Part shown: positions 27,260-46,251 of the stretch, piece by piece
How positions within the stretch are numbered: position 1 is the stretch's first letter
How the letters are laid out: each line of letters opens with the position of its first letter
Origin: an uncultured Frankineae bacterium
Lineage (GTDB): Bacteria; Actinomycetota; Actinomycetes; Mycobacteriales; SCTD01
Length of the DNA stretch: 46,259 bases
Reading direction: 5' to 3'
Assembly (NCBI GenBank): GCA_902805775.1
Contig: CADCUB010000044.1
Span: 1 to 46,259 of the forward strand
Program-made: the position numbers and the translations under genes
Notes under the pieces: generated by a model
The model's database searches: none
The model's input: only the letters and a program-made list of their open reading frames with translations
What the model was told of the DNA's origin: nothing

Positions 27260-27334
27260 GTGCCCGCGCCCCGTGTGCCCGCTCCTGGTGTGCCCGCTCC
27301 TGGTGTGCCCGCGCCGGGTGTGCTCGCGCCCGAG
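27260..27334 (+). repeat. Five imperfect 15-bp tandem repeats, each beginning with GTG
   Basis: gtgcccgcgccccgt/gtgcccgctcctggt/gtgcccgctcctggt/gtgcccgcgccgggt/gtgctcgcgcccgag; encodes VPAPR VPAPG VPAPG VPAPG VLAPE. Confidence 0.9.
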
Positions 27335-28555
27335 CGCGGACCCGGCGCCCCTGCCGACCGGAGGCGCGGTCGTTGGACGCTGCTGCTCGCCGTCGTCCTC
27401 ACGGCGGTCAACCTGCGCACCGCCGTCACCAGCGTCGGTCCGCTGCTCAGCGAGGTGCAGGCCGCCACCGGCCTGAGCAGCGCGCTGGCCGGAGTGCTCA
27501 CGACGCTGCCCGTGGCCTGCTTCGCCCTGGTCGGCTGGTACGCCCCGGCGCTCGCCCACCGCTTCGGCGAGCACCGGGCGGTGGCGGCGGCGCTGGCGCT
27601 GATGACGGTCGGGCTGGCCGGCCGGGCGGCGGTGGCCTCACCTGCGCCGTTCCTCGCCCTGAGCGGGGTGGCCCTGCTCGGCGGCGCTGTCGGCAACGTG
27701 CTGCTGCCCTCGCTGGTCAAGCGCCACTTCCCCGACCGGATCGGGCCCATGACGGCGGTCTACACGACGGCGCTGGCGGTCGGGCTGACCGCGGCGGCCG
27801 CAGGTGCCGTACCGCTCGCGCAGGCCGTCGGCGAGGGCGGGTGGCGCGTCGGGCTGGGGGCCTGGGCGCTGCTGTCCGCGGTGGCCGTGCTGCCGTGGCT
27901 GCTCCACCTCGGTGAGCGCGGCGGCCCCGCGTCCCTCGGCGGAGCCCGCAGCGGCGCGCGGATGCTGCGCAGCCGCACGGCCTGGGCGCTGGCGCTGTTC
28001 TTCGGGGCGCAGTCGCTGCACGCCTACGTCTCGTTCGGCTGGTTCGCGCTGTTCTTCGCCGAGCGGGGCGGCTTCTCCGCGGCGACGTCCGGCCTGCTGG
28101 TCGCCGTCGTGGCCGGGCTGTCCATCCCCGTCTCGGCCGTGGTGCCCTCGGTGGCCGGCCGGCTGACCTCCCAGTGGCCGCTGGTCCTGCTGCACACCGC
28201 CTGCTACGTCGTCGCCTACACCGGCATGCTGCTCGCGCCGTCGGCCGGCGCGTGGCTGTGGGCGGTGCTCGTCGGGATCGCCTCGGGCGCCTTCCCGCTG
28301 GCGCTGACGATGATCGCGCTGCGGGCCCGGACCGCCGACGGCACCGCGTCGCTGTCCGCCTTCGCGCAGAGCGTCGGGTACGTCCTGGCCGGCAGCGGCC
28401 CGCTGCTCGTCGGGGTGCTGCACGACGCCGAGGGCGAGTGGGCCGGCACCTTCGTCCTGCTGTTCGCCACCCTCGGCGTCATGGCGGTGTCGGGCTGGTT
28501 CGCCTCGCAGCCGCGCGTCGTCGAGGACGAGCTGCCGCCGCGGCCCGTCGGCTGA
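27260..28555 (+). CDS. MFS transporter, CynX/NimT-like
   Basis: LLLAVVLTAVNLRTAVTSVGPLLSEVQAATGLSSALAGVLTTLPVACFALVGWYAPALAHRFG...GNVLLPSLVKRHFPDRIGPMTAVYTTALAVGLTAAA; 12-TM pattern. Confidence 0.88.
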   Translation: MPAPRVPAPGVPAPGVPAPGVLAPERGPGAPADRRRGRWTLLLAVVLTAVNLRTAVTSVGPLLSEVQAATGLSSALAGVLTTLPVACFALVGWYAPALAHRFGEHRAVAAALALMTVGLAGRAAVASPAPFLALSGVALLGGAVGNVLLPSLVKRHFPDRIGPMTAVYTTALAVGLTAAAAGAVPLAQAVGEGGWRVGLGAWALLSAVAVLPWLLHLGERGGPASLGGARSGARMLRSRTAWALALFFGAQSLHAYVSFGWFALFFAERGGFSAATSGLLVAVVAGLSIPVSAVVPSVAGRLTSQWPLVLLHTACYVVAYTGMLLAPSAGAWLWAVLVGIASGAFPLALTMIALRARTADGTASLSAFAQSVGYVLAGSGPLLVGVLHDAEGEWAGTFVLLFATLGVMAVSGWFASQPRVVEDELPPRPVG

Positions 28556-28612: not shown

Positions 28613-30025
28613 TCACAGCGGCGGGGCCGCGGCGGCCAGCGCCTCCAGGGCGGCGTCGAAGCACTCGGGGGGAGGGGTGACCAGGCCCGCGCCGACCTGG
28701 CCGGTCCCCGCCACCCGACCGGCCATCCCGGTGTTGATCTGCGGCAGGACACCGGTGCGCACGACCTGGACGACGTCGATGCCGGTCGGGGTCCCGCGGA
28801 AGTCCAGCACCGGCACCGTGAAGGCCCGGCTCTCGGCCAGGGTGATCTCGTACATCCGGGTGGTGGTCGACAGGGCGTACGCCGCGTCGCCCCCCACCAG
28901 CCGGACGATGGCCGGGGCCGCGGCCATGGCGAAGCCGCCGAGCCCGCCGGTCTCGGTGATCGCGGAGTCACCGATGTCGGGGTTGGCGTCCTGCGGGCCG
29001 AACGAGCCCAGGAACAGGCCGTCGGCCACCAGGGCGGGCGCGGTGAACCAGGCGTCGCCCGTGCCGGAGGTCTGCACGCCGAAGTCGGTGCCGTTGCGGG
29101 CCATCGCCACCACGAGCGTCGAGCCGGGCACGTCGCGGGCGGCGTCGGTCGCCAGCTTGCAGGCCGGCATCACGAGGTTGAGGAAGAAGTGGTCGTTGCC
29201 GCCGACGAAGCGCGCGACCTCCGCCACGTCGCGGGTCGGGGCGCCGCTCGACAGCAGGTCGGGCAGCAGCTCGCGCAGCAGCATGAGCGTGCCCGCGCGG
29301 TTGCGGTTGTGGCCCTCGTCGCCCATCTGCAGCATCTGGGCGACGATCGCCCGCACGTCGACGGGTCCGTGCCGCCGGACGGCCGCGCCGAGCAGCGGGC
29401 CGAGCACCGCCGACATCCACCGCAGCCGGTCGAGGACCTCCGGGCCGAACGCGCCGTAGCGCAGCACCTTGCCGAGCCCCTCGTTGAGCGAGCACCAGGC
29501 GCGGCCGCCGTGCACGGCGTCCTCCAGCTCGACCATCCACATCGACGGGCTGACGACGCCGGCCATCGGCCCCACCGCCCCGCGTCCGTGGCAGGGCTCC
29601 AGGACGATCCCGTCACCCGCCGCGAGCGCCGCCTCGGCCCGCTCGGGGGTGTCGGCGAGGCCCTCGAGCAGCACGGCGCCGATCAGCGCCCCGCGCAGGG
29701 GGCCGGACGCGCGCTCCCAGGTGAGGGGCGGCCCGGCGTGCAGGAAGGTGCCGGGCTCCAGGCCGAGCGCCTGCGCGGCCGGGCGCACGTCGACGAGCGT
29801 CGCCTCGGCCGACAGCAGGCGCTCCACGGCCGTGGCGTTGGCCGCCTCGCGCCGGGGGTCGGCGACGACCCGGGCGAGCGCGTCAGCACTGCCGCGCGGC
29901 GGTCGCCAGTCGACCGCCTCGACGACCGCGGCCTGGTCCTGCAGCGCCTGCGTGAGGACGGCGGCGCCCGCGGTGACCGTACGGGGCTCGCGGGTGAGCA
30001 GGCCCGACAGCGGGGCGGAGGTCAT
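28613..30025 (-). CDS. DUF1116 protein, YlbE/AllG-like (oxamate carbamoyltransferase-type component)
   Basis: LGPLLGAAVRRHGPVDVRAIVAQMLQMGDEGHNRNRAGTLMLLRELLPDLL...VARFVGGNDHFFLNLVMPACKLATDAARDVPGSTLVVAMARNGTDFGVQTSGTGDAWFTAPA...DSAITETGGLGGFAMAAAPAIV; next to fdrA. Confidence 0.9.
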   Translation of the reverse strand: MTSAPLSGLLTREPRTVTAGAAVLTQALQDQAAVVEAVDWRPPRGSADALARVVADPRREAANATAVERLLSAEATLVDVRPAAQALGLEPGTFLHAGPPLTWERASGPLRGALIGAVLLEGLADTPERAEAALAAGDGIVLEPCHGRGAVGPMAGVVSPSMWMVELEDAVHGGRAWCSLNEGLGKVLRYGAFGPEVLDRLRWMSAVLGPLLGAAVRRHGPVDVRAIVAQMLQMGDEGHNRNRAGTLMLLRELLPDLLSSGAPTRDVAEVARFVGGNDHFFLNLVMPACKLATDAARDVPGSTLVVAMARNGTDFGVQTSGTGDAWFTAPALVADGLFLGSFGPQDANPDIGDSAITETGGLGGFAMAAAPAIVRLVGGDAAYALSTTTRMYEITLAESRAFTVPVLDFRGTPTGIDVVQVVRTGVLPQINTGMAGRVAGTGQVGAGLVTPPPECFDAALEALAAAAPPL

Positions 30026-31524
30026 GCGATCGCCTCCCGAGCGACGAGCGAGACCGCTCGCCGGGCGGCGGCGGCGTTGGACAGCAGGACGGTGGCGCCC
30101 GCGTCGCGCAGCGCCTGGGCCTGGCGGTCCAGGCCCTGCGGATCACCCGCCGCCCCGCACAGGGACACGACCAGGTCGAGCGGACGGCCCGCGTCCCGGC
30201 GGGCCGCAGCGAGGGCCGGGGCGAGGGACGCGGCCGGGTCGGGGTCGGCGCCGTGCCCGAGCACGACGTCGAGCAGCACGACGCCGACCGCCGGGTCGGC
30301 GGCCTCCTGGGCGAGGCGCTCCAGGCGCAGCGTCGGGTCGATCATCGGGTGCGGCCGGCCGGCGGTGAGCCGGTCGTCGCCGAAGTCGACCATGACGTGC
30401 CCGTCGGCCCGCAGGTCGTCGGGCAGCGCCCACTCCGGCCGCAGCGGGATGTTCGAGCGCACCGGTCCCAGCGCCGCGGCGGCGATCGCCATCGCCTCGT
30501 CGCACAGCGTCCCCCCGCTGAACAGCCCGCGCAGCGCGCCGCCGCCCTGCGCACCGCCCTCGGCCTGGCGGACCTGCGGCGCCGGCCAGACCGGCCACTC
30601 GGGCACCGGGAGGTCGAGCTCGCGCAGGACGTCCTCGACGACCGCCGTCAGGTCGGGCTGGCCCTCGCCGAGCAGCGCCAGGCGCACCGGGGTGCGCAGC
30701 GCGCCGGCCCGTGCCCGGACGCGCTCGGAGACCTCGGGCGCAGCCGGCTTGGACACCACCACGACCAGGTCGGTGCCGGGGTCGGCGTCGAACGCGTCGA
30801 GCGCCTGCAGCGTCGAGCGACCGCCGACCGCCGCCGACAGGTCGCGTCCCCCGACCCCCAGGCAGGCGCTCAGCCCCGCGCCCGCGGCGTCCAGCAGGCA
30901 CATCACCTGCTGGGCGCCGGTGCCGGACGCCGCCACCAGGCCCACGCGACCGGGCCGCACGACGTTGGCGAAGCCCAGGCCCACGCCACCGACGACGGCG
31001 GTGCCGCAGTCGGGGCCCATGACGAGCAGGTCGCGCCGGGCCGCCTCGTCCTTGAGCCGGACCTCGTGCTCGACGGGCACCCCGTCGCTGAAGACCAGGA
31101 CGGACAGGCCGGACTGCAGCGCGTCCATCGCCTCGACGAAGGCGTAGCGGCCGGGCACCGAGACCAGCGCCAGGTCGGCGTCGGAGCGCGCCGCGGCCGA
31201 GCGGGTCGTCCGGGCCGCCGGCGGCGCGCCCCCCGGTGCGCCGCTCGACGTCGGGGCCTGCGCGCTCAGGGCGGCCTCCAGCGCCTGCAGGGCGCCGGCG
31301 AGCGCGCCGCCGTCCTCGGCCCGCACGCCGACCAGCAGGTCGTCCGGTCCGGCGCCGTCGGGGACCCGCAGTCCCATGCCCTCGAGCAGCTCGAGGTTGA
31401 GCCCGGTGGCCATGGCGACCAGCGCGGCCGTGACGCCGGGGGAGGAGCGGACGGCCCGGGTGACCTGCATCAGGGCGACCGAGTCGCGGTAGGCGCCCCG
31501 CCGCAGCTCGACGTGGTCGCTCAT
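30022..31524 (-). CDS. fdrA: FdrA family protein (AllF-like, acyl-CoA-synthetase-like fold)
   Basis: VELRRGAYRDSVALMQVTRAVRSSPGVTAALVAMATGLNLELLEGMG...LLVMGPDCGTAVVGGVGLGFANVVRPGRVGLVAASGTGAQQVMCLLD. Confidence 0.9.
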   Translation of the reverse strand: MSDHVELRRGAYRDSVALMQVTRAVRSSPGVTAALVAMATGLNLELLEGMGLRVPDGAGPDDLLVGVRAEDGGALAGALQALEAALSAQAPTSSGAPGGAPPAARTTRSAAARSDADLALVSVPGRYAFVEAMDALQSGLSVLVFSDGVPVEHEVRLKDEAARRDLLVMGPDCGTAVVGGVGLGFANVVRPGRVGLVAASGTGAQQVMCLLDAAGAGLSACLGVGGRDLSAAVGGRSTLQALDAFDADPGTDLVVVVSKPAAPEVSERVRARAGALRTPVRLALLGEGQPDLTAVVEDVLRELDLPVPEWPVWPAPQVRQAEGGAQGGGALRGLFSGGTLCDEAMAIAAAALGPVRSNIPLRPEWALPDDLRADGHVMVDFGDDRLTAGRPHPMIDPTLRLERLAQEAADPAVGVVLLDVVLGHGADPDPAASLAPALAAARRDAGRPLDLVVSLCGAAGDPQGLDRQAQALRDAGATVLLSNAAAARRAVSLVAREAIA

Positions 31525-32429
31525 CGGTCCTCCGGGAGGTCGGGGGCAGCGGGCCGGGCCCGTGCGCACAGGGCCTGCGCCGCGGCGAGCACGCCGCGGG
31601 CCGTGTCGGCACCCGAGGTGTGACCGACCGCCAGCAGGGCGTTCAGCGCCGGGCGCAGCGCGGGCCGGCCGGTCAGCGCGTCGACGAGGTCGAGCACCGC
31701 AGGTGCGGCTGCCCCGCGCGCGGCGTGCCGGAGCAGCGCCGCTGACAGCGCGCAGGTCCGGCCGCGGGCCGTGCGGCTCACGTGCTCCCCGAGCCCGTCC
31801 GCGGTGGCCGCCAAGGCGGCCGCGCCGGGCGTCGTCCTCAGCCGGGCGCAGGCGACCAGTGCTCCGGCCAGGACGTCGTCGCCGGACGGCGTCAGGCCCG
31901 GCCCCAGGCCCATCAGCGCGTCCGCGGCTCGACGGGCCGCGGCGACGTCGAGCGCGGCCAGCGCGGCGGACACCTGCGCGCTGCCGGTCCGCAGCGCGGC
32001 GGACAGGGGGCCGACGTGCGGGTCGGGCAGCGCGCCGGCCAGCTCGTCGAGGCGGTCGTCGCCGACGGCGGCGCCGGGAGGGACGGCTGCGGCGTCGGCC
32101 CGCCAGCGCGCGACCGGGTAGCGGACGCCGGCCACCTCCAGCACCCCGTCGCGCACCCGGGCCGGCTGACCGGCGCGGTGCACGGCGAGCGGCCCGGCCG
32201 TGCTGGCAGCGGCCAGGACGAGGGCGTTGGGCAGGCGCAGGCCGTCGCAGGTGACGACCGCGACGACCTCGCCCCCGCCCTCCCCGTCACCGTCACGGTC
32301 GCCGCCGCCGCGCTCGAGCTCGACGTACACCGCGGACGGGAACGCGCCGAGGACCCGGCCGCGCGCGGGGGCGGCCAGCGCGGGGCGCACAGCGGCGCTG
32401 CCCACCGTCGGTCGGTCCGTCGTCGGCAC
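31521..32429 (-). CDS. DUF2877 protein (YlbF/AllH-like)
   Basis: GRVLGAFPSAVYVEL...ADALMGLGPGLTPSGDDVLAGALVACARLRT (GLGPGLTPSGDDxLxG signature); 4-bp overlap with fdrA. Confidence 0.9.
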   Translation of the reverse strand: MPTTDRPTVGSAAVRPALAAPARGRVLGAFPSAVYVELERGGGDRDGDGEGGGEVVAVVTCDGLRLPNALVLAAASTAGPLAVHRAGQPARVRDGVLEVAGVRYPVARWRADAAAVPPGAAVGDDRLDELAGALPDPHVGPLSAALRTGSAQVSAALAALDVAAARRAADALMGLGPGLTPSGDDVLAGALVACARLRTTPGAAALAATADGLGEHVSRTARGRTCALSAALLRHAARGAAAPAVLDLVDALTGRPALRPALNALLAVGHTSGADTARGVLAAAQALCARARPAAPDLPEDR

Positions 32430-32645: not shown

Positions 32646-34106
32646 ATGCAGCTGGGTCTCGGGTGGAAGCTCCACGGCGACGGGTCGACGCCCCGGGCGG
32701 GGGAGGTCGTCCGCCCGGACGAACGCCTGTCCTGGGGCCGGACGGTCGGTCTGGGCGCCCAGCACATCGTCGCGATGTTCGGGGCGACGTTCGTCTTCCC
32801 GCTCATCATGGGGCTCAGCCCCCAGCTCGCGATCATGATGAGCGGCGTCGCCACGATCCTGTTCCTGCTGCTGGTGCAGGGCCGGGTGCCGAGCTACCTC
32901 GGCACGAGCGCGTCCTTCGTGGGCGGCGTCGCGGCCATCCGCGAGCAGGGCGGCACCAGCCAGGAGGTGACCGGTGCGATCCTCGTCGCCGGTGCGGTGC
33001 TCGCCGTCGTGGGCCTGGTCATCCACGTCGCGGGCGCCCGCGCCATCTTCGCCGTCCTGCCGCCGGTCGTGACCGGCGCCGTCGTCATGCTCATCGGCTT
33101 CAACCTCGCGCCCGTCGTGGCGAACGTCTACTGGCCACAGGACCAGTGGATCGCGCTCATCGTCATGTTCGCCGTCATCGTCATGAGCCTGGCGCTGCGC
33201 GGCTTCCTCGGCCGCATCTCGATCTTCCTGGGGCTGGTCTTCGGCTACGCCCTGTCCTGGGTCTTCGACCGGACCTTCGGCCAGATCACCTCCTTCGACG
33301 CCGCGGCCCGTGACATCACCACGCGCTACCGCGTGAACTGGGACAGTGTGCGGTCCGCCGACTGGATCGGCTTCCCGCCGGAGACGACGACCGCGGCCGA
33401 CGGCATGTCGGTCGCCGGCTGGCACCTCCCCGACTTCCGCCTCGCGTTCGTCCTGCTCGTGCTGCCGGCCGTCATCGCCCTGGTCGCCGAGAACGTCGGC
33501 CACGTCAAGGCCGTCGCGGAGATGACCGACACCGACCTCGACCCGGTCATGGGTCGCGCCGTCGCCGCCGACGGCATCGCGACGGTGGTCACGAGCAGCG
33601 TGGGCGGCTCGCCGACCACGACCTACGCCGAGAACATCGGCGTCATGGCCGCGACCCGCGTCTACTCCACGGCGGCCTACTACGTCGCCGCGGTCGTGGC
33701 GATCCTGTTCGGCCTGTCGCCGAAGTTCGGCGCGCTCATCTCCGCCACACCCGGTGGCGTCCTGGGCGGCATCACCGTCGTGCTGTACGGGATGATCGGC
33801 CTGCTGGGCGCGAAGATCTGGATCGAGAACCGCGTCGACTTCGGCAACCCGGTGAACCTCGTCCCGGTGGCCGCGGGCATCATCCTCGCGATCGGCGACA
33901 CCGAGCTGCAGGTCACCGACGAGTTCACGCTCAGCGGCATCGCGCTGGGCACCATCGTCACGATCCTCGGCTACCACCTGGCCCGCCGGCTCGCGCCGGC
34001 CCACCTGCGCGGCGCGGCCGACTCCTCCACGTCGCTGGTGCTCAACGAGCCGGACATGTACCGCGCGGACCCGCAGGACGACGACCGCGACCGCCTGCGA
34101 CGCTGA
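32646..34106 (+). CDS. Uracil/xanthine permease family (NCS2) transporter
   Basis: TVGLGAQHIVAMFGATFVFPLIMGLSPQLAIMMSGVATILFLLLVQGRVPSYLGTSASFVGGVAAI...ALVAENVGHVKAVAEMTDTDLDPVMGRAVAADGIATVVTSSVGGSPTTTYAENIGVMAATRVYST. Confidence 0.93.
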   Translation: MQLGLGWKLHGDGSTPRAGEVVRPDERLSWGRTVGLGAQHIVAMFGATFVFPLIMGLSPQLAIMMSGVATILFLLLVQGRVPSYLGTSASFVGGVAAIREQGGTSQEVTGAILVAGAVLAVVGLVIHVAGARAIFAVLPPVVTGAVVMLIGFNLAPVVANVYWPQDQWIALIVMFAVIVMSLALRGFLGRISIFLGLVFGYALSWVFDRTFGQITSFDAAARDITTRYRVNWDSVRSADWIGFPPETTTAADGMSVAGWHLPDFRLAFVLLVLPAVIALVAENVGHVKAVAEMTDTDLDPVMGRAVAADGIATVVTSSVGGSPTTTYAENIGVMAATRVYSTAAYYVAAVVAILFGLSPKFGALISATPGGVLGGITVVLYGMIGLLGAKIWIENRVDFGNPVNLVPVAAGIILAIGDTELQVTDEFTLSGIALGTIVTILGYHLARRLAPAHLRGAADSSTSLVLNEPDMYRADPQDDDRDRLRR

Positions 34107-34138
34107 TCCGCCGTGCCCACCCCCCGACAGGAGCCGCG

Positions 34139-35040
34139 GTGAAACCGGCGCCCTTCACGCTGCACTCGCCCTCGACGCTCGACGAGACGCTCGAGGTGCT
34201 CGAGGAGCTCGGCGACGACGCGAAGGTGCTGGCCGGCGGCCAGAGCCTGATCCCGATGCTCAACATGCGCCTGGCCGCACCGGCCCACCTCGTCGACGTC
34301 AACGGCGTGCGCGAGCTGGCCACGGTGTCGGCCTCGGCCTCGGGAGTGCGGGTCGGCGCGCTCGCCCGGCACACCCAGGTCCTGCGCGACGCCGGCGCCG
34401 CCGCCGCTGTACCGCTGCTGCCCCAGGCGCTCTCGCTGGTGGCGCACCCGGTCGTCCGCAACCGGGGGACGACCGTCGGCAGCCTGGTGCACGCCGACCC
34501 GTCGGGCGAGATGACCGCCGTGCTCGCCCTGCTGGGCGGCAGCCTCGAGCTGCGCAGCCGCACCCGCACGCGCACCGTGGGGGCCGACGCGTTCTTCCTC
34601 GGCCCCCTCGAGGCCGACCTGCAGCCCGGCGAGCTGGCGGTCTCGGCCACCTTCCCGGCCCTGCCGCCGCGCTCCGGCACGGCCTTCCGCGAGGTCGCCC
34701 GCCGGCACGGCGACTACGCGGTCTGCGGGGTGGCGGCGGCGGTGACGCTCGACGCCGCCGGACGGGTGGAGCGCGCTGCGGTGTCGTACATCTCGATGAC
34801 GCCGACACCGGTCGTCGTCGACGCCACCGACGCCGTGTCCGGCCGGCTGTGGGACGCCGCCGACTGGGCGGCCGCGGCCCGGTCCTGCGGCGACGCCGTC
34901 GACCCCGAGCCCGACCTGCACGCCAGTGCCGCCTACCGCCGGCACCTGGGCACGGTGCTGACCCGGCAGGCGCTGTCGGAAGCGGCGGCGCACGCTCGTA
35001 CGGCGACCGACGCCCCGCTCGAGACCGCCGGAGGAGCAGC

Positions 35041-35044
<4 letters not shown>
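34139..35044 (+). CDS. Molybdenum hydroxylase FAD-binding subunit (CoxM/XdhB-like)
   Basis: LAGGQSLIPMLNMRLAAPAHLVDVNGV...HPVVRNRGTTVGSLVHADPSGEMTAVLALLGG. Confidence 0.92.
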
Positions 35045-35552
<508 letters not shown>

Positions 35553-35556
<4 letters not shown>

Positions 35557-37976
35557 CGACCCGGCTGTTCGGCGCGCCGGTGCCGCGCTCCGAGGACGCC
35601 CGCCTGCTCACCGGCGGTGGCCGCTACCTCGACGACCTCGGCCACGACGCGGCTGCGGTCGCCTTCGTGCGCAGCCCGCACGCCCACGCGCGCATCGTCG
35701 ACGTCGACGTCACCGACGCGCTCGACGTCGAGGGCCTGCTCGCCGTCTACACCTACGAGGACCTCGAGGGCGCGCTCGCGGAGCCGCTGCCGCTGCTCAT
35801 CCCGCACCCGAGCATCGTCGCCGGCCGCACCGCGCACGCCCTGGCCTCGGGCGTCGTCCACCACGTCGGCGAGCCGGTCGTCATGGTCGTCGCGAGCGAC
35901 CGCTACGTCGCCGAGGACGTCTGCGACCGGATCCGCGTCGAGTACGACGTGCTGCCCGCCGTGGTGGGCGTGCGCAACGCCCGCGACGCGACCCACCTGG
36001 CGCACGCCGACGTGCCCGGCAACGTCGCGGCGCACCTGGTGCAGGAGGTCGGTGACGCCCGCGCCGCCATCGACGCGGCGCCGCACGTGCTCGAGCTCGA
36101 GCTCGACATCGAGCGCAGCGCCTGCACGCCGCTCGAGGGCCGGGGCGTCTACGCGCGCTGGGACGCCGACGAGTCGCGCCTGCGGCTGTGGAGCTCCACG
36201 CAGACCACCACCGGCGTGCGCGCCGCCGTCGCCGCCAAGCTCGAGCTGCCGCTGAGCGCCGTCGACTGCACGGCGCCGGACGTCGGCGGAGGCTTCGGCG
36301 TGAAGATCATGCACCCGTGGCCGGAGGAGGTGCTCGTGCCCTGGGCGGCGCGCCGGCTCGACCGCGAGCTCAAGTGGACCGAGGACCGGCGCGAGCACTT
36401 CGTCTCCTCCGCCCACGAGCGCGCGCAGGTGCAGCAGGTGCGCGTCGGCTTCGACGACGCCGGCCGGCTGCTCGGACTCGACGTGCGCTTCTGGCACGAC
36501 AACGGCGCCTACCTGCCGTACGGCGTCATCGTCCCGATCATCACCTCGACGCAGCTGCTCGGGCCGTACAAGCCGGGCGCCTACCGGGTCGAGTTCGACA
36601 GCCTCTACACCAACACCGTCATCGTGACGCCCTACCGCGGCGCCGGCCGGCCGCAGGGCGTGTTCGCGATGGAGCGGACGATGGACGCGATCGCCGACCA
36701 CCTCGGGCGAGACCGGGTCGCGGTGCGGGAGGCCAACTTCATCGGTCCCGACGAGATGCCGTACGACCAGCAGATGACCTTCCAGGACGGCCGTCCGCTG
36801 GTCTACGACTCGGGCGACTTCCCGGCGACCATGGCCAAGCTCAAGGACCTGGTGGGCTGGGACGAGTTCGCGGCCTACCGCGAGCAGGCGCGCGCCGAGG
36901 GCCGCCGGGTCGGCATCGGCGTCGCCTGCTACGTGGAGGGCACCGGAGTCGGGCCGTACGAAGGCGGTCACGTGCAGGTCGAGACGAGCGGCAAGGTCGT
37001 CGTCGCCACCGGTCTGACGACGCAGGGGCAGGGCCACGAGACGGTGTTCGCGCAGATCGTCGCGGACGAGCTCGGCGTGCCGTTCGAGGACGTCACCGTG
37101 ACGACCGGCGACACGCGGCGGATGCCCTACTCCGTCGGCACCTTCGCGTCGCGGGCGGCCGTGATGAGCGGCAACGCCGTCGGTCTCGCGGCGCGCAACG
37201 TGCGCACCAAGGCGCTGCGCATCGCCGGTGACGCGCTCGAGGCCGACCCGCAGGACCTCGAGATCGTCGACGGCCAGGTGCGGGTGAAGGGCAACCCGTC
37301 GGTCGGCCTGCCGCTGTCGACCGTCGCGGTGCTGTCGAACCCGCTCCGGTACGCCTTCGACAAGGCCTCCCAGGCCGCCACGCAGTTCGTCGTCGGCGAC
37401 CCCGACTCGCCGCCGGTCGCCGAGGACGACGAGCCGGGGCTCGAGGGCCGCGACTTCTACTCCCCGCCGCAGTCCACCTACGCCAACGGCATGCACGCCG
37501 TCGTGGTCGAGACCGACCCGGAGACCGCCGAGATCCGCATCCTGCGCTACTGCGTCGTGCACGACTGCGGCAACGTCGTGAACCCCATGATCGTGGAGGG
37601 CCAGATCCACGGCGGCGTGGCGCAGGGCGTCGGCGGCGCGCTGTACGAGCGGATGGCCTACGACGAGGACGGCCAGCTGCTCAACGCCTCGTTCATGGAC
37701 TTCCTCATGCCCTACGCGACGGAGGTGCCCGCGACCGTCGAGATCGACCACCTCGAGACCCCGTCGCCGCTCAACCCCCTCGGCATCAAGGGCGCCGGCG
37801 AGGCCGGGGTCATCCCGGGCGCCGCGGCGTTCGCCTCGGCGATCGAGGACGCCGAGGGCTTCCGCATCAGCGCCATGCCGATCTCGCCCAGCGAGCTGTT
37901 CGCGCTGCGCGCGCGCTTCGCCGCAGGGGACATCCCGGCGGTCCGCACCGCACCCCGTCCGGAGGGCACCTCGTGA
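35553..37976 (+). CDS. Molybdopterin-binding large subunit, xanthine dehydrogenase/form II CoxL-like
   Basis: APDVGGGFGVKI...TPYRGAGRPQG...GTFASRAAVMSGNAV...KGAGEAGVIPGAAAFASAIEDA (catalytic Glu motif). Confidence 0.93.
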
Positions 37977-38650
37977 AGATCGCCGGCTCGGCCGTGCTGC
38001 ACGCCCCCGTCGAGCGCGTGTGGGGGGCGCTGAACGACCCGGCGGTGCTCGAGCGCACCATCCCCGGCTGCTCGCGGCTCTCGCCCACCGGCCCGGACGC
38101 CTACGCCATGACCGTGACGGCGGGAGTGGCCTCCATCAAGGGCGTCTACTCCGGATCGGTCGCCCTGCACGACCAGCAGCCGCCCGGCTCGTTCCGCCTG
38201 ACGGCCTCGGGCGCGGGCGCTCCCGGCACCGTGCGCGCCGACGTCCTGGTCCGGCTCGTCGACGGCGGCGACGGGACGACGCAGCTCTCGTACGACGCGG
38301 ACGCCGTCGTCGGCGGCATGGTGGGCGGAGTGGGGCAGCGCGTGCTCAGCGGCGTCGCGAAACGGACGGCAGGGGAGTTCTTCTCCGCCGTCGACGACGT
38401 GCTGACGGGGGCGGCGCCGCCCGTGCCCGAGAGCGGGCCGGGAGGCCCGGCGGGGCAGGACGCGGCGCCGCTCGCACCCTCGACGCCCGCGTCGGCGGTC
38501 GAGCCGGCCTCGGCCCCGGTGCCCGTCCGTTCCGCCCCCGTCCCGGCCGGCGCCGACGGCGGCGGGCAGTTCCTGCGCGGCGCCCTCATCGGTGCGGCCG
38601 CGGCGCTGCTCGGGGTCCTCGTCGGCGCCCGCGTCGCGCGTCGGCCCTGA
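37973..38650 (+). CDS. CoxG-like SRPBCC protein with C-terminal hydrophobic anchor
   Basis: MKIAGSAVLHAPVERVWGALNDPAVLERTIPGCSRL...; C-terminus FLRGALIGAAAALLGVLVGARVARRP. Confidence 0.88.
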   Translation: MKIAGSAVLHAPVERVWGALNDPAVLERTIPGCSRLSPTGPDAYAMTVTAGVASIKGVYSGSVALHDQQPPGSFRLTASGAGAPGTVRADVLVRLVDGGDGTTQLSYDADAVVGGMVGGVGQRVLSGVAKRTAGEFFSAVDDVLTGAAPPVPESGPGGPAGQDAAPLAPSTPASAVEPASAPVPVRSAPVPAGADGGGQFLRGALIGAAAALLGVLVGARVARRP

Positions 38651-38658
38651 GCGGCGCC

Positions 38659-40761
38659 GTGACGACCCCGTCGTCCCGCCGGATCCGGATCGGCATCGAC
38701 ACCGGCGGCACGTTCACCGACGTGGTCGCGGTCGACGAGGACACCGGCGAGCTCGTCACCACGAAGACGCCCTCCACGCCGGCCGATCCGGCCGACGGGT
38801 TCCTGGCCGGCGTCGACAAGGTGCTCGGGCTGCTGGGCGCGCGGGGCGCCGACGTCACCGCCGTCAGCCACGGCACCACCGTCGCCACGAACCACCTGCT
38901 GCAGGGCTCGCTCGGCCGGATCGGCTTCCTCACCAACGAGGGCTACGAGTTCGTGCTCGAGATCGCCCGGCAGTCGGTGCCCGACGGCTACGGCAACAGC
39001 TACTTCTGGGTCAAGCCCGACCGCATCGTGCCCCCCGACCTGGTCGGCACGGTCGGGGGACGGATGGACTTCCGCGGTCGCGAGCTGCGGCCCTTCGACG
39101 AGGCCTCCGCCGTACGCGCCGTCCGCCTGCTCCGCGACCGGGGCGTGACGTCGGTGGGTGTCTGCCTGCTGCACGCCTACGCCAACCCGGCCCACGAGCA
39201 CGCGGTCCGGGAGGTGCTGCGTCGCGAGCACCCCGACGCCGTCGTGTCGCTGTCCTGCGAGGTGCTGCGGGAGTACCGGGAGTACGAGCGCAGCGTCACC
39301 ACGCTCGTCGACGCGGCCGTCAAGCCGCGGGTCAGCACCTACGTCCGCGGCATCGCCGACCGCCTGGGGGAGCGGCTGTCCGCGGGCGAGGCGGCGCAGC
39401 GGCACGTCCCCTTCTACGTCATGAAGTCCAACGGCGGTGTCCTGTCGGCGCAGGAGGTCGTGCACCAGCCGATCTCGACGGTGCTGTCCGGCCCGGCCGC
39501 CGGTGCGCTGGGCGCGGCCTTCGTGGCCGGCCGGGCCGGCGTGGACCGCCTGCTGACCTGCGACGGCGGCGGCACGTCGACCGACGTGTCCGTCGTGCTG
39601 GGCGGCGAGCCGACGCTCACCACCGAGGGCAGCGTCGGCCCGTACCCCTCCAAGATCCCGATGATCGACGTGGTGACCGTCGGCGCCGGCGGGGGCTCGA
39701 TCGCCCACGTCTCGCCGGAGGGCACCCTCAAGGTCGGCCCGCGCTCGGCGGGGGCCGACCCCGGTCCGCTCTGCTACGGCCGGGGCGGCACGGACCCGAC
39801 CGTCACGGACGCGCACCTGGTGCTCGGCCGCATCCCCCCGCACCTGCTCGGGGGCGAGATCCCGCTCGACGTCGACGCGGCACGCACCGGGCTGCAGCTC
39901 CTGGCCGACCGGCTCGGGATGTCGCTGATCGCCTGTGCCATCGGCGTTCTGGAGGTCTCGGCCTGGAACCAGGCCAACGCCCTGCGCCAGGTGACGGTCA
40001 AGCGCGGCCTGGACGTCCGCGAGTTCACGATGGCCACCTTCGGCGGCTCGGGCTCGCTGCTGCTGTGCCGGCTGATCGACGTGCTGGGCCTGCGCGGGGT
40101 GCTCGTGCCGACCGACCCGGGCAACCTGTCGGCCTTCGGGCTGCTGACGGTCGACGTCCGCAACGACTACGTGCAGACGGCGGTCCGCCGGCACCGAGAC
40201 CTCGTCCCGCAGGAGGTCGCGGGAGCCTTCGAGGTCCTGCAGGCCAGCGCGGCCGCTGCTCTCGACGACGAGGGCTTCACCCCGCCGCAGCACCGGTTCG
40301 TCCGCAGCGCCGACCTGCGCTACTTCGGCCAGGCCTTCGAGGTCCGGGTGCCGGTGCCGGCGGGCCCGGTCGACGCCCGGCTCGCCGACGCGGTGGCCGA
40401 GGCCTTCCACAGCGCGCACGAGCAGCTGTACGGCTACAGCTTCCGCGACGACCCGCGGCAGCAGGTGGAGTGGGTCAACCTGCGGGTCACGGGCATCGGG
40501 CCGCTGCGCCGGCCCGAGCTGCGTGAGCTCGAGGTCCGGCCGGGCGGCGCCGAGCGCGCGCGCTCCGGGACGCGCAGCGTCTTCTTCGACGACGAGCGGG
40601 ACACGCCGGTCTACTGGCGGCCCGACCTGTCACCCGGGGACGAGGTGCACGGGCCCGCGGTCCTCGAGGAGTTCGGCTCCACGATCCCGCTGCACCCGGG
40701 CTTCTGCGCCCGGGTCGACCGCTTCGGCAACGTGCACGTCACGGCGGAGGGCAGCGCATGA
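38659..40761 (+). CDS. hyuA: Hydantoinase A/oxoprolinase family protein (HyuA)
   Basis: RIRIGIDTGGTFTDVVAVDEDTGELVTTKTPSTP...GTTVATNHLLQG...VLSGPAAGALGAAFVAGRAGVDRLLTCDGGGTSTDVSVV; GTG start. Confidence 0.92.
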   Translation: MTTPSSRRIRIGIDTGGTFTDVVAVDEDTGELVTTKTPSTPADPADGFLAGVDKVLGLLGARGADVTAVSHGTTVATNHLLQGSLGRIGFLTNEGYEFVLEIARQSVPDGYGNSYFWVKPDRIVPPDLVGTVGGRMDFRGRELRPFDEASAVRAVRLLRDRGVTSVGVCLLHAYANPAHEHAVREVLRREHPDAVVSLSCEVLREYREYERSVTTLVDAAVKPRVSTYVRGIADRLGERLSAGEAAQRHVPFYVMKSNGGVLSAQEVVHQPISTVLSGPAAGALGAAFVAGRAGVDRLLTCDGGGTSTDVSVVLGGEPTLTTEGSVGPYPSKIPMIDVVTVGAGGGSIAHVSPEGTLKVGPRSAGADPGPLCYGRGGTDPTVTDAHLVLGRIPPHLLGGEIPLDVDAARTGLQLLADRLGMSLIACAIGVLEVSAWNQANALRQVTVKRGLDVREFTMATFGGSGSLLLCRLIDVLGLRGVLVPTDPGNLSAFGLLTVDVRNDYVQTAVRRHRDLVPQEVAGAFEVLQASAAAALDDEGFTPPQHRFVRSADLRYFGQAFEVRVPVPAGPVDARLADAVAEAFHSAHEQLYGYSFRDDPRQQVEWVNLRVTGIGPLRRPELRELEVRPGGAERARSGTRSVFFDDERDTPVYWRPDLSPGDEVHGPAVLEEFGSTIPLHPGFCARVDRFGNVHVTAEGSA

Positions 40762-42614
40762 CCGAGGTCGACCCGGTCCTGCTCGAGATCGTCGAGGGGA
40801 GCCTGGCCTCGATCGAGCGGGAGGTCGAGACGGCGATCGGCCGCACGTCGCGCTCCCCGATGATCCGCGACGCCCACGACTACCGGGCCGGCATCCACGA
40901 CCGCAGGCTGCGCAAGCTGACGGGCCGGTCGTACTCCGCACTGGTGCACCCGGTCGTCCGCGACTTCCCCCTCGACACGATGCGGCCCGGGGACGTCTTC
41001 TTCCACAACGACGTCTACCTGTCCGAGGGGGGCATCGGCCACCTGCCCGACCTGTGCGTCACGGTGCCGGTCTTCGTCGACGGTGACGTCGTGGCCTTCG
41101 TGCAGGCCTTCGGCCACCACGACGACATCGGTGGCGCCTGCCCGGGGTCGATGCCGAGCGGGGCGACGGAGATCTACCAGGAGGGGCTGATGGTCCCGCC
41201 GATCCGCCTGTGGGACCAGGGCGTGCCCAACGACGCGGCGCTGAGGATCATGACGCGCAACTCGCGGATGCCCGACTCGCTCGCGGCCGACCTCGACGCG
41301 GAGTGCTCGGCCTGCCTCATGGGCGCCCGGCGGCTGTCCGAGCTGTTCACGCGCTACGGGCGCGCGACCGTCGAGGCGTGCTTCGACGCGCTGGTCGACA
41401 AGACCACGCAGACCTACCGGCGCGAGGTGCTGTCGAAGATCCCGGACGGGCAGTACGTCTGGGAGGACTACGCCGAGCACGACGGCGTCGACGAGCCGCA
41501 GCTGCACACCCAGCGGATCACCCTCACCAAGACCGAGGACCGGCTCGTCATCGACTTCACGGGCACCAGCAGGCAGGCCCGCGGACCGATCAACCACTGC
41601 GGCGACTACGCCGACGGCAACTTCCTCAAGAAGTGGCTGGCGCCGATCCTGCGCAACCTGGCCGACACCCCCGAGCGGATGGCCGAGCTCGACGTCAACG
41701 AGGGCGTCGTCCCGCTGATCGAGATGCGCTTCCCCGAGAAGGGGACGCTGCTCACGCCGGTCTTCCCGGCACCGGTCAACGCCCGGACGTTCGTCATCCT
41801 GCGCCTGCTGGGCGTGCTGGCCGGAGTGCTGGCCAAGGCCGTCGACGGCCGGATGCCGGCGGACCAGGAGACCATCCGCTACACCGGCGTCCACGGCACC
41901 GACGACGCCGGCGAGCCCTACCTCATGCGCGAGGTGCTGGGCGGCGGCTCGGGCGGGCGCTGGTACGCCGACGGGGAGGACACCATCCACGTCGTCCCCG
42001 ACTCGCGGAACCTGCCGACCGAGTTCACCGAGTCGCGCTTCCCGTTCCTCGTCGAGCGGCTGTCCTTGGCGCAGGACTCGGGCGGACCGGGTCTGTTCCG
42101 CGGCGGGCTGGGCTACGAGAAGGACATCCGCATGCTGCGCGACGCGTCCTTCATGTGCATCGCCGACCGCTCGATCCTGGCCTGCTGGGGCGTCAAGGGC
42201 GGCCGGGCCGGCAGGCCGTTCTCGGTCGTCGTCGACCCCGGCGGCCCCCACGAGCGCGCGCTCGAGGGCCTGGTCGACGCCGAGCCGGTGCGCGCGGGAG
42301 AGGTCATCCGCATCCGCACCACCGGCGGCGGCGGCTGGGGCGACCCCCTCGAGCGCAGCGTCGAGGCCGTGCTGCGCGACGTGCGCTGGGGCAAGGTGTC
42401 GGCCGCGGGTGCCCGCGACGACTACGGCGTCGTCGTGACCGGTGCGCCGGGTGACGCCGTCGCGGACCTCGACGCGACGACCGCTCTGCGGGAGAGCCGT
42501 CGGGCGCAGCGCGGCCCGGAGCCGTTCTTCGACCGCGGCCCCGGCTACGCGCGCCTGTCGGGAGGCCGGGCGCACTCGCCGTACGACTGGCTCGACGGCG
42601 CCGCCCCCGGGTGA
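40758..42614 (+). CDS. hyuB: Hydantoinase B/oxoprolinase family protein (HyuB)
   Basis: DPVLLEIVEGSLASIEREVETAIGRTSRSPMIRDAHDYRAGIHD...GDVFFHNDVYLSEGGIGHLPDLCVTVPVF...IDFTGTSRQARGPINH; ATGA overlap with hyuA. Confidence 0.92.
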   Translation: MTEVDPVLLEIVEGSLASIEREVETAIGRTSRSPMIRDAHDYRAGIHDRRLRKLTGRSYSALVHPVVRDFPLDTMRPGDVFFHNDVYLSEGGIGHLPDLCVTVPVFVDGDVVAFVQAFGHHDDIGGACPGSMPSGATEIYQEGLMVPPIRLWDQGVPNDAALRIMTRNSRMPDSLAADLDAECSACLMGARRLSELFTRYGRATVEACFDALVDKTTQTYRREVLSKIPDGQYVWEDYAEHDGVDEPQLHTQRITLTKTEDRLVIDFTGTSRQARGPINHCGDYADGNFLKKWLAPILRNLADTPERMAELDVNEGVVPLIEMRFPEKGTLLTPVFPAPVNARTFVILRLLGVLAGVLAKAVDGRMPADQETIRYTGVHGTDDAGEPYLMREVLGGGSGGRWYADGEDTIHVVPDSRNLPTEFTESRFPFLVERLSLAQDSGGPGLFRGGLGYEKDIRMLRDASFMCIADRSILACWGVKGGRAGRPFSVVVDPGGPHERALEGLVDAEPVRAGEVIRIRTTGGGGWGDPLERSVEAVLRDVRWGKVSAAGARDDYGVVVTGAPGDAVADLDATTALRESRRAQRGPEPFFDRGPGYARLSGGRAHSPYDWLDGAAPG

Positions 42615-42656
42615 GGCGCCGCCCGTCCGCACGGCCCGATCCGCGACGGACCATCA

Positions 42657-42723
42657 TGTCCGCCGGAGCACCCCTGTCCGCCGGCACACCTGTCGCCGGA
42701 GCACCTGTCCGCCGGAGCACACC
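42657..42723 (+). repeat. Four imperfect 15-18-bp tandem units upstream of the CoA-transferase gene
   Basis: tgtccgccggagcacccc/tgtccgccggcacacc/tgtcgccggagcacc/tgtccgccggagcacacc. Confidence 0.85.
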
Positions 42724-42763
42724 GGAGTCGCCGCGGGGCGGCCCCCGACGCGAGGAGACCGCC

Positions 42764-44050
42764 ATGTCCGCCGCCCCACCCGGACCGCTGTCGGGCGTCG
42801 TCGTCGTCGACCTGAGCCGGGCGCTCGCCGGACCGCACGCGGCGATGATGCTCGGTGACCTCGGCGCACGGGTCCTCAAGGTCGAGACGCCGGGCACCGG
42901 TGACGACACCCGCGGGTGGGGCCCGCCCTTCGTCGGTCCGCAGGACGCCCGCGAGTCGACGTACTTCCTGTCCTGCAACCGCAACAAGGAGTCGATCGCC
43001 CTCGACCTCAAGAGCGACGACGGCCGGGAGACGCTGACCCGGCTCGTGCGGTCCGCCGACGTGCTGGTCGAGAACTTCCGCACCGGCGTGCTGGACCGCC
43101 TGGGCTTCTCGGTCGAGCAGCTGCAGGCGCTCAACCCGCGCCTGGTGGTCCTGTCGATCACCGGCTTCGGCCACGACGGACCGGAGGGCGGCCGGGCCGG
43201 CTACGACCAGATCGCCCAGGGCGAGGCCGGGCTGATGTCCCTCACCGGCCCCGACGCCGACAGCCCGACGCGGGTCGGCCTGCCGATCGGCGACCTGCTG
43301 GCGGGGATGTACGGCGCGTACGGCGTGGCCGCGGCGCTGGCCGAGCGCGCGCACACCGGCCGGGGCAGCGTCGTGCGCACCTCGCTGCTGGCCGCCATCG
43401 TCGGCGTGCACGCCTTCCAGGGGACGCGGTACACGGTCGCCGGCGAGGTGCCGCACGCCTCGGGCAACCACCACCCGTCGCTGTCGCCGTACGGCTCGTT
43501 CCACTGCCGGGACGCCGTGGTGCAGGTGGCGGTCGGCAGCGAGGGGCTGTGGCGCAAGTTCGCCCCCGTCGTCGGACTGGACCCCGAGGACCCGCGCTTC
43601 GCCCACAACCGGGCCCGCGTCGAGCGGCACGGCGAGCTGGTCGACCTGATCGACGCCGCCTTCGGCGACCGGCTCGTCGACGACGTGCTCGCCGACCTGG
43701 CACGCGCCGGTGTCCCGGCCGGCGAGGTCCGCACCCTGGACCGGGTCTACGACTGGGAGCAGACCCGCTCGCAGGGCCTGCTCGTCGAGGTCGAGCACAG
43801 CTCGCTCGGGACCATCACGCTGCCCGGGCCGCCGCTGCGCTTCGACGGCGCTCCCGCCGGCCAGCACCGCCCGCCGCCGCGCCTCGACGAGCACGGGGCG
43901 CAGATCCGGGCCTGGCTCGACGAGCAGGACTCCGCACGCCCTGACCGGGCGGGGGAGCCCGGGGCGGGGCAGCCCGCGACGGGGTCGGACGCTGCTGGGC
44001 AGCCCGCGACGGGGACGGGCGCTGCGGCGCAGCGCGGGGCGGCCGGATGA
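42764..44050 (+). CDS. CaiB/BaiF family (type III) CoA-transferase
   Basis: LSGVVVVDLSRALAGPHAAMMLGDLGARVLKVETPGTGDDTRGWGPPF...RNKESIALDLKSDDGRETLTRLVRSADVLVENFRTGVLDRLGF; ATG at 42764 with GAGGAG SD (in-frame upstream ATG at 42656). Confidence 0.92.
   Translation: MSAAPPGPLSGVVVVDLSRALAGPHAAMMLGDLGARVLKVETPGTGDDTRGWGPPFVGPQDARESTYFLSCNRNKESIALDLKSDDGRETLTRLVRSADVLVENFRTGVLDRLGFSVEQLQALNPRLVVLSITGFGHDGPEGGRAGYDQIAQGEAGLMSLTGPDADSPTRVGLPIGDLLAGMYGAYGVAAALAERAHTGRGSVVRTSLLAAIVGVHAFQGTRYTVAGEVPHASGNHHPSLSPYGSFHCRDAVVQVAVGSEGLWRKFAPVVGLDPEDPRFAHNRARVERHGELVDLIDAAFGDRLVDDVLADLARAGVPAGEVRTLDRVYDWEQTRSQGLLVEVEHSSLGTITLPGPPLRFDGAPAGQHRPPPRLDEHGAQIRAWLDEQDSARPDRAGEPGAGQPATGSDAAGQPATGTGAAAQRGAAG
43967..44026 (+). 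repeat. Two 30-bp tandem repeats at the 3' end of the CoA-transferase gene
   Basis: gggcagcccgcgacggggtcggacgctgct / gggcagcccgcgacggggacgggcgctgcg; encodes GQPATGSDAAGQPATGTGAA. Confidence 0.85.
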
Positions 44051-44982
44051 GGGCGCTGATCGCTCTCGGCGGCAACGCCATGACCGGCCCCGACGGGTCG
44101 GCGACTCCGCAGGCGCAGGAGCGCGCGATCGCCACGGCGATGGAGCACGTCGCCGGTCTCGTCGCGGACGGGGTGGAGGTCGTCCTCACGCACGGCAACG
44201 GGCCACAGGTGGGAAACCTGCTCGTCAAGAACGAGGTGGCCGCCTCGGTCGTGCCGCCCGTGCCGCTGGACTGGTGCGGCGCCCAGACCCAGGCCACCAT
44301 CGGGTTCCTCGTCCTCGACGCGCTGGACGCCGCTCTGGCCGCCCGGGGCAGCGACCGCCGGGTGGCGGCACTGGTGACGCGCACGCGCGTGGACCCCGAC
44401 GATCCCGGCTTCGCCCGGCCCAGCAAGCCCGTCGGCCGCTACCTGCCCCGCGAGCAGGCCGAGACCCTGGTCGCCCACGGTGAGACCTGGCAGGACCGCG
44501 GTCCGCAGGGGTGGCGGCGCGTGGTCGCCTCGCCCGAGCCGCTGGAGGTGCTGGACGCACCGGCCGTCCTGGCGCTGATGGCTGCCGGGTTCGTGGTGGT
44601 GGCCGCCGGCGGCGGCGGGATCCCGCACACCCGTCACGCCGACGGCACGCTGCACGGCATCGGCGCGGTGCTCGACAAGGACCTCACGGCCGCGCTCCTG
44701 GCCCGCAGCACCGGCGCGGACGTGCTCGTGATCGCCACCGACGTCGACCACGTCCTGCTCGACTTCGGCACCGACCGGGCCCGGCCGCTCGAGCGGGCCA
44801 CGCCCGCCGAGCTGCGGGCGCACGCGGCCGACGGGCAGTTCGCGAGCGGCAGCATGGGTCCGAAGGTCGAGGCGGTCGCCCGCTTCGTCGAGCAGGGCGG
44901 CCGCCGGGCGGTCATCACCTCCCTCGAGCAGATCACCGACGCGGTGGCCGGCCGGGCGGGGACGGTGGTCGAACCGGGCTGA
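44047..44982 (+). CDS. Carbamate kinase (ArcC/AllK family)
   Basis: MRALIALGGNAMTGPDGSATPQAQERAI...LTHGNGPQVGNLLVKNE...PSKPVGRYLPREQAE...VVAAGGGGIPHTRHADGTLHGIGAVLDKDLTAALLA...GSMGPKVEA. Confidence 0.95.
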   Translation: MRALIALGGNAMTGPDGSATPQAQERAIATAMEHVAGLVADGVEVVLTHGNGPQVGNLLVKNEVAASVVPPVPLDWCGAQTQATIGFLVLDALDAALAARGSDRRVAALVTRTRVDPDDPGFARPSKPVGRYLPREQAETLVAHGETWQDRGPQGWRRVVASPEPLEVLDAPAVLALMAAGFVVVAAGGGGIPHTRHADGTLHGIGAVLDKDLTAALLARSTGADVLVIATDVDHVLLDFGTDRARPLERATPAELRAHAADGQFASGSMGPKVEAVARFVEQGGRRAVITSLEQITDAVAGRAGTVVEPG

Positions 44983-45135
44983 CACGGGCCCGGCGTCGAG
45001 GTGGGGCCCAGCCGGCCGGGGCCGGGTGCGAGGGCCGGGCCGAGCCGGGCGGCGCCCGGTGGCAGGGTGCAGGAGCAGGGCCGGCGGCGAGCCGTTCGCC
45101 GTCCAGGAGCACGACCGACGAGAGGTGCGACCCCC

Positions 45136-46251
45136 GTGGCACAGGGCCCACAGCCGATCGAGGTCCGCAAGGTCCCGATCGAGAGCGTCAGCGACGCGTC
45201 CGGACTCACCCGCCTGCTGGACGAGGGCGTGATCGAGGCCGACCGCGTCGTCGCCGTCATCGGCAAGACCGAGGGCAACGGCGGCGTCAACGACTACACG
45301 CGGATCATCGCCGACCGGGCCTTCCGGGAGGTGCTGGTGGCCCGGGGCAGCCGTACCGACGAGGAGGTGCGGCAGATCCCGATCGTGTGGTCGGGCGGCA
45401 CCGACGGGGTGCTGTCGCCGCACGCGACGATCTTCGCCACCGTCCCCGGGTCGAGCGCGCACCCCACCGACGAGCCCCGGGTGTCGGTCGGCTACGCGAT
45501 GAGCGACACGATCCTGCCCGAGGACATCGGCCGGCTCCCCATGGTGGAGAAGGTGGCCGCGGGGGTGCGCGTGGCGATGGAGCGGGCCGGCATCACCGAC
45601 CCCGCCGACGTCCACTACGTGCAGACCAAGACGCCGCTGCTCACCCTCGACACGATCAACGACGCCAAGCGGCGCGGGCAGGACGTGTGGACCGAGGACA
45701 CCCTGAAGTCGATGGACGTCTCCAACTCGACGACCGCCCTCGGCATCGCCGTGGCCCTCGGCGAGATCGAGATGCCGACGCAGGAGCAGATCCACAAGGA
45801 CCTGTCGCTGTTCTCCTCGGTGGCGTCGTGCTCGTCGGGCGTCGAGCTCGACCAGGCGCAGATCGTCGTCGTCGGCAACGTCCGCGGGCACGGCGGTCGC
45901 TACCGGATCGGCCACAGCGTGATGAAGGACGGCCTGGACGCCGACGGCGTCTGGGAGGCGATCCGCAGCGCCGGGCTGGAGCTGCCCGAGCGGCCGCACC
46001 CGTCGGACCTCGGCGACCGGGTCGTCAACGTCTTCTGCAAGTGCGAGGCCGACCCGTCCGGGCGCGTCCGCGACCGGCGCAACATCATGCTCGACGACTC
46101 GGACGTGCACTGGCACCGCCAGATCAAGGCCTGCGTCGGCGGTGTCGTGGCGTCGGTGACCGGCGACCCGGCGGTCTTCGTGTCGGTCGCCGCGGTGCAC
46201 CAGGGCCCCTCGGGCGGCGGGCCGGTGATCGCGATCGTCGACCACGGCTGA
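45136..46251 (+). CDS. Ring-opening amidohydrolase (cyanuric acid amidohydrolase/barbiturase family)
   Basis: [19 protein letters not shown]...[20 protein letters not shown]...KTPLLT...[21 protein letters not shown]...[22 protein letters not shown]; three repeated Ser-containing motifs typical of the AtzD/barbiturase fold; GTG start at 45136. Confidence 0.92.

Follow-up and report, generated by a model that had tools for sequence, protein, structure and literature searches.

A gene trio of the AllFGH family predicted to act on ureidomalonate alongside barbiturase in an uncultured Frankineae bacterium

The window analysed here is contig CADCUB010000044.1 (GenBank assembly GCA_902805775.1), a stretch of 46,259 nucleotides from an uncultured Frankineae bacterium, and its subject is a trio of genes at 28613-32429 that encode relatives of the AllH, AllF (FdrA) and AllG proteins. 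Judging from gene context, the trio probably represents an AllFGH-type carbamoyltransferase that is run as a phosphorolase on ureidomalonate, within an oxidative pyrimidine pathway. In E. coli, AllFGH was established in 2024 as oxamic transcarbamylase, which ends the breakdown of allantoin by converting oxalurate and phosphate to oxamate and carbamoyl phosphate, with AllK as the carbamate kinase (PMC11326118). A sequence-only reading of the window had proposed a carbamoyl donor other than oxalurate and clade-specific substrates for the trio, a proposal that both context and trees now support; the barbiturase and the carbamate kinase, the two genes that point to a substrate, were absent from it.

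The gene order DUF2877-fdrA-DUF1116 with 4-bp overlaps, as that reading had it, is confirmed by Pfam and NCBIfam assignments (Table 1) and by the AllH/AllF and AllF/AllG junctions, both of which read ATGA. All three subunit families of AllFGH are present and adjacent, and Pfam has changed the names of these families in line with the AllFGH function. The AllF/FdrA protein, whose start in the list of open reading frames was placed 45 bp too far upstream, scores 114.6 bits to Ligase_CoA and 395.9 bits to the FdrA subfamily model NF004760, below that model's cut-off of 433; its nearest PDB entry is 3dmy ("Protein fdrA"), followed by succinyl-CoA synthetase alpha. AllH has no PDB relative by sequence search, and its AlphaFold model (predicted local distance difference test score, pLDDT, 80.6) finds no match at E < 0.1 in a fold search of the PDB, for which reason the AllH fold was dropped as a clue to mechanism. 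In Enterococcus faecalis (locus L092, 7414-10425), FdrA and DUF1116 are annotated as a single coding sequence of 1003 amino acids, and this fusion, which has allD close to it, speaks for a physical complex. E. coli K-12 F128 carries a second trio together with a carbamate kinase and an amidohydrolase, in the order yahE-yahF(fdrA)-yahG-yahI-yahJ (locus L091, 5589-12171). Convergent with the trio in the window lies a CynX/NimT-family transporter of the major facilitator superfamily (27260-28555), a possible carrier of an anionic intermediate.

Against PDB entry 5HWE ("Barbiturase"), the ring-opening amidohydrolase at the far end of the window scores 605 bits at 76% identity; against cyanuric acid hydrolases its score is no higher than 326 bits. 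Its specificity residues are N-H-K-V-A, the full five-residue signature of barbiturase, which as group VI of the AtzD family is marked by N-H-K-V-S/A (PMC3758960). By its signature, and by standing nearer to characterised barbiturase (Bar) than to cyanuric acid hydrolases, the protein belongs with the barbiturases. All 27 completely read barbiturases from the clade described next have N-H-K-V followed by S, A or G.

In the AllG tree, the window protein falls in a 28-row clade of Actinomycetota (support 100/99), with the allantoin-linked proteins of E. coli and E. faecalis outside it; the AllF tree splits likewise. This is the separation from allantoin-linked members for which the earlier reading had suggested a test, and its companion question, whether the clade tracks a ring-opening amidohydrolase, is answered by a barbiturase gene in 28/28 genomes (in G035 only as two contig-end fragments). 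AllG and Bar share a contig, within 60 kb of each other, in 21 of the 28. Across 298 Actinomycetota genomes AllG is found in 37, AtzD/Bar in 19 and both in 15 (Fisher p ~4e-12, uncorrected for kinship); sampling beyond this phylum consisted of plasmid records and E. coli. Several Actinomycetota genomes show the single-strand order Bar-NCS2-carbamate kinase-AllH-AllF-AllG-Mo hydroxylase, the last being a molybdenum (Mo) enzyme. AllG residues A106, S107, T313 and G436 are fixed in the Bar clade; their use as a gauge of substrate size was dropped, since a carboxybiuret-linked clade, whose substrate is about as large, has the allantoin-clade residues at 106 and 436. Contig 118 of genome G016 (locus L106) encodes a second ring-opening amidohydrolase, a divergent one with the signature RMKTG; next to it are Mo hydroxylase subunits of its own and an amidase.

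A survey of 251 Mycobacteriaceae-type genomes (the family of genome G043, presumably Mycobacteriaceae) finds a Bar-type enzyme in 15, of which 14 have no AllG. The notion that Bar always implies AllFGH is rejected on the strength of these 14 with Bar alone. One group of the Bar-type enzymes, 98.6-99.7% identical to 5HWE, is the characterised barbiturase itself, by inference of Rhodococcus origin. The AllG-less clusters share with the relatives of the window an NCS2 permease, Mo hydroxylase, CoxG, HyuAB, CoA-transferase and PucR regulator. In ten of the eleven AllG-less loci read, a PF01425 amidase lies 194-280 bp from Bar, and none of the eleven has a carbamate kinase. In 24 genomes that have both Bar and AllFGH, a carbamate kinase gene lies on the same strand as Bar and no more than 13 kb from it, and the Mycobacteriaceae-type amidase is not found beside Bar in any such locus read. 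Genome G368, itself Mycobacteriaceae-type, has Bar, carbamate kinase and AllG, with no amidase seen. In the window, no amidase of the ureidomalonase type stands beside Bar, the contig ending right after this gene with its downstream side unseen. Ureidomalonase yields urea and malonate (PMC3758960). The amidase beside Bar in the AllG-less loci is presumably this enzyme, and therefore AllFGH with carbamate kinase would most simply handle the same intermediate, by phosphorolysis. It would appear that the pair of AllFGH and carbamate kinase replaces the hydrolytic ureidomalonase.

In the pathway we propose, the NCS2 permease would import uracil, perhaps also thymine, the Mo hydroxylase would convert uracil to barbiturate, and barbiturase, assigned by strong homology, would open barbiturate to ureidomalonate (HOOC-CH2-CO-NH-CO-NH2). 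Oxalurate is one CH2 shorter than ureidomalonate, and by analogy with the oxalurate reaction AllFGH would turn ureidomalonate and phosphate into carbamoyl phosphate and malonamate. The carbamate kinase, a family-level assignment, would then convert carbamoyl phosphate and ADP to ATP, ammonia and CO2, and malonamate would be deamidated to malonate and activated to malonyl-CoA. With AllFGH and carbamate kinase in the place of ureidomalonase, energy would be conserved. Related AllFGH clusters repeatedly contain amidases from other subfamilies, either AtzE-like PF01425 or CN_hydrolase, which could deamidate malonamate. We offer this gene set for a form of the oxidative pyrimidine pathway that conserves energy; it would extend a recently assigned family beyond the sole substrate proven for it. 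A literature search found no link of barbiturase to AllFGH or to carbamoyl phosphate, weak evidence of novelty given that subscription papers were mostly outside its scope.

Several points weigh against the ureidomalonate assignment. The function of AllFGH in the window is predicted from gene context. For the uracil dehydrogenase of the classical pathway the candidate is a Mo hydroxylase of the N-heterocycle type, and uracil as its substrate is something we infer. The window cluster as seen, on a contig that ends just after Bar, includes no malonamate amidase. HyuAB is kept in both cluster types and has no step assigned in the proposed pathway. The swap with the amidase is confined to one family, and it may amount to a single event because the amidase-type genomes are mostly close kin. 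AllFGH is also not strictly dependent on Bar, because a sister clade of five loci (G073, G088, G092, G193 and G215) has AllFG with HyuAB and, where read, Mo hydroxylase, and no AtzD/Bar gene in its genomes. This clade suggests that HyuAB may act as the ring opener there. Three of its loci are L059, L072 and L068 (from G215, G193 and G092, respectively), and G215 and G193 carry an amidase and an acyl-CoA ligase as well.

The trio might instead be an ordinary oxamic transcarbamylase that receives oxalurate by some other route, such as HyuAB opening parabanate, next to a barbiturase with a separate purpose. That oxalurate is the only proven substrate of the family (PMC11326118) speaks for this, as does the persistence of AllFG with Mo hydroxylase and HyuAB in the Bar-less sister clade, but we consider it unlikely. 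AllFGH with carbamate kinase trades places with the amidase beside Bar, the clade with its universal Bar lies apart from the allantoin-linked one, and the means of making oxalurate are not in evidence. As the sequence-only reading had observed for the locus, no allantoinase, allantoate amidohydrolase or ureidoglycolate dehydrogenase is found among the window genes scanned. The window genome (92% complete) has no candidate for the oxalurate-forming AllD, and its best match to the allantoinase model is 240 bits, with the cut-off at 357.85. Among clade genomes AllD exceeds its cut-off in 0/27 (the E. coli control being positive), and allantoinase exceeds its own in 14/25 and falls below in 11/25, the window genome included. 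An oxamic transcarbamylase in the strict sense should group with allantoin-linked AllF and AllG and be accompanied by allantoinase and AllD; the window trio does not so group, and its genome, at the completeness given, shows neither enzyme above cut-off. The outcome that would have told against a different donor, nesting within allantoin-linked sequences together with a full oxalurate pathway, is thus not what was found.

Action on another acylurea, for example methyl-ureidomalonate derived from thymine, in which case HyuAB and not barbiturase would open the ring, is quite unlikely. The conservation of Mo hydroxylase and HyuAB next to AllFG even without Bar would fit it, but Bar is found in all genomes of the AllG clade to which the window belongs, and HyuAB is equally kept in genomes that lack AllFGH and so does not track the trio. 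A HyuB orthologue occurs in 43/46 related genomes, mostly at 74-84% identity, with AllFGH present or absent, and this equal conservation also led us to reject the idea that HyuAB serves as malonamate amidase in AllFGH-type clusters specifically. It is highly improbable that the neighbourhood is due to chance, or that the trio performs an anabolic carbamoylation unconnected with barbiturate: the window trio does lie on the strand opposite the Bar operon, and AllG and Bar are 15 kb apart, but other Actinomycetota have one-strand operons of Bar, carbamate kinase and AllHFG, and the co-occurrence statistics for AllG and Bar also speak against it.

The divergent plus-strand operon (32646-46251) begins about 220 bp from the trio and extends nearly to the contig end at 46259; among the junctions read in it, most are ATGA or GTGA overlaps. 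It belongs to the same system as the trio and holds the carbamate kinase gene expected of an AllFGH system. Its Mo subunit scores 1516 bits to the NCBIfam model named for aerobic carbon monoxide dehydrogenase; it has PYRGAGR and no AYxCSFR loop, and carbon monoxide dehydrogenase was rejected as its identity on the absence of that motif. Among proteins of solved structure, quinoline 2-oxidoreductase and 6-hydroxypseudooxynicotine dehydrogenase are closest to it. From these sequence features, the model's name is likely misleading and the enzyme likely an N-heterocycle hydroxylase.

Table 1. Genes of the trio and of the divergent operon, in window coordinates
Feature	Position	Strand	Evidence and remarks
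AllG-like subunit (PF06545, formerly DUF1116)	28613..30025	-	Pfam 311 bits; nearest PDB entry 3clq
AllF/FdrA-like subunit, Ligase_CoA C-terminal domain	30022..31524	-	Pfam and NCBIfam
AllH-like subunit (PF11392, formerly DUF2877)	31521..32429	-	GTG start; Pfam 80.9 bits
NCS2 nucleobase permease, RutG-like	32646..34106	+	PF00860; best NCBIfam match RutG, below cut-off
Molybdenum hydroxylase FAD subunit	34139..35044	+	PF00941, PF03450
Molybdenum hydroxylase 2Fe-2S subunit	35041..35556	+	PF00111, PF01799; ATGA start overlap
Molybdenum hydroxylase Mo subunit, candidate uracil/thymine hydroxylase	35553..37976	+	PF02738/PF20256; GTGA overlap
CoxG-like protein	37973..38650	+	PF06240
HyuA, hydantoinase/oxoprolinase subunit A	38647..40761 (start approximate)	+	PF01968/PF05378; caprolactamase alpha-like, below cut-off
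HyuB, hydantoinase/oxoprolinase subunit B	40758..42614	+	PF02538
CoA-transferase family III, candidate for malonate activation	42611..44050	+	PF02515
Carbamate kinase (AllK-like)	44047..44982	+	PF00696; NF009007 304.9 bits, cut-off 266
Barbiturase, AtzD/Bar ring-opening amidohydrolase	45136..46251	+	PF09663 499 bits; other open reading frame start at 45001

A wider family may be involved. The sequence-only reading had spoken of a general ureido-acid phosphorolase with clade-specific substrates; the clade specificity has the support of context and trees, and the wording is better changed to putative acylureas of the form HOOC-X-CO-NH-CO-NH2. We lean, by a little, towards the view that AllFGH proteins are general phosphorolases for such acylureas, each clade with its own, that serve ATP-yielding catabolism of pyrimidines, s-triazines and triuret, and that the substrate of nitrifier allFGHK has been misassigned. 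The contexts suggest that X is lacking where the substrate comes from allantoin (oxalurate), is CH2 where barbiturase supplies it (ureidomalonate), and is NH where it is made by cyanuric acid hydrolase or triuret hydrolase (carboxybiuret). These last two enzymes are of unrelated families and form the same product, carboxybiuret (PMC7948467). AllFG and carbamate kinase stand beside ring-opening amidohydrolases that bear RTRGG, the signature of cyanuric acid hydrolase, in L026, L089, L095 and L098, and beside cysteine hydrolases of the TrtA type in L023 and in the Actinomycetota G030 and G124. In both the AllG and the AllF tree the two types of partner are intermingled, as expected if the substrate of AllFGH stays constant while the upstream enzyme changes. 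Phosphorolysis of carboxybiuret would yield carbamoyl phosphate and allophanate, and the allophanate hydrolase gene atzF adjoins the trio cluster of L098. In comammox bacteria and archaea, allFGHK beside trtA/biuH has been interpreted as oxalurate degradation (PMC12625717); our comparison suggests carboxybiuret instead. If so, these genes of ammonia-oxidising microbes have the wrong substrate in the literature. Caution is due before trios of FdrA, DUF1116 and DUF2877, including those of nitrifiers and enterobacterial plasmids, are all called oxamate carbamoyltransferase.

Individual plasmid loci show further detail. On an E. coli plasmid (L023, 8816-16026), AllHFG, carbamate kinase and a gene resembling cytosine permeases follow a cysteine hydrolase that has the residues of triuret hydrolase (F35, N41, A134, E160, Y187 and I205); together they probably form a triuret/carboxybiuret pathway. 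Plasmid pSR8 (L026) combines AllFG, cyanuric acid hydrolase and carbamate kinase with an AtzC-like amidohydrolase of 31% identity, a hint as to the origin of atzC. In Paenarthrobacter aurescens pTC1 (L099, 8983-10432), the atrazine gene atzC itself has a truncated AllG and a carbamate kinase as neighbours.

Among known systems, the proteobacterial-plasmid trios (L023, L026, L089, L095 and L098) resemble that of the window in joining the trio and carbamate kinase to an enzyme that makes a carboxylated acylurea, but they belong to another AllFG clade, their partner is an RTRGG ring opener or a TrtA-type hydrolase, and their likely substrate is carboxybiuret. Catabolic ornithine and putrescine transcarbamylases with carbamate kinase likewise work by phosphorolysis to carbamoyl phosphate and then form ATP, but their protein family is unrelated to the trio. 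Oxamic transcarbamylase is itself unlike any known transcarbamylase (PMC11326118). With E. coli AllFGH and AllK the window shares the three subunit families and the carbamate kinase, and the predicted chemistry is the same, from an acylurea and phosphate to carbamoyl phosphate and an amide. It differs in its separate clade, in its gene order (AllH-AllF-AllG, against AllF-AllG-AllH-AllK in E. coli) and in having a barbiturase, Mo hydroxylase and pyrimidine-type permease with neither oxalurate-forming genes nor an allantoin pathway. With the oxidative pyrimidine pathway of Rhodococcus (PMC3758960) it has barbiturase, NCS2 permease, Mo hydroxylase, CoxG, HyuAB and CoA-transferase in common; where that pathway has an amidase beside Bar, for hydrolysis to urea and malonate, the window has AllFGH and carbamate kinase, for a predicted phosphorolysis with a gain of ATP.

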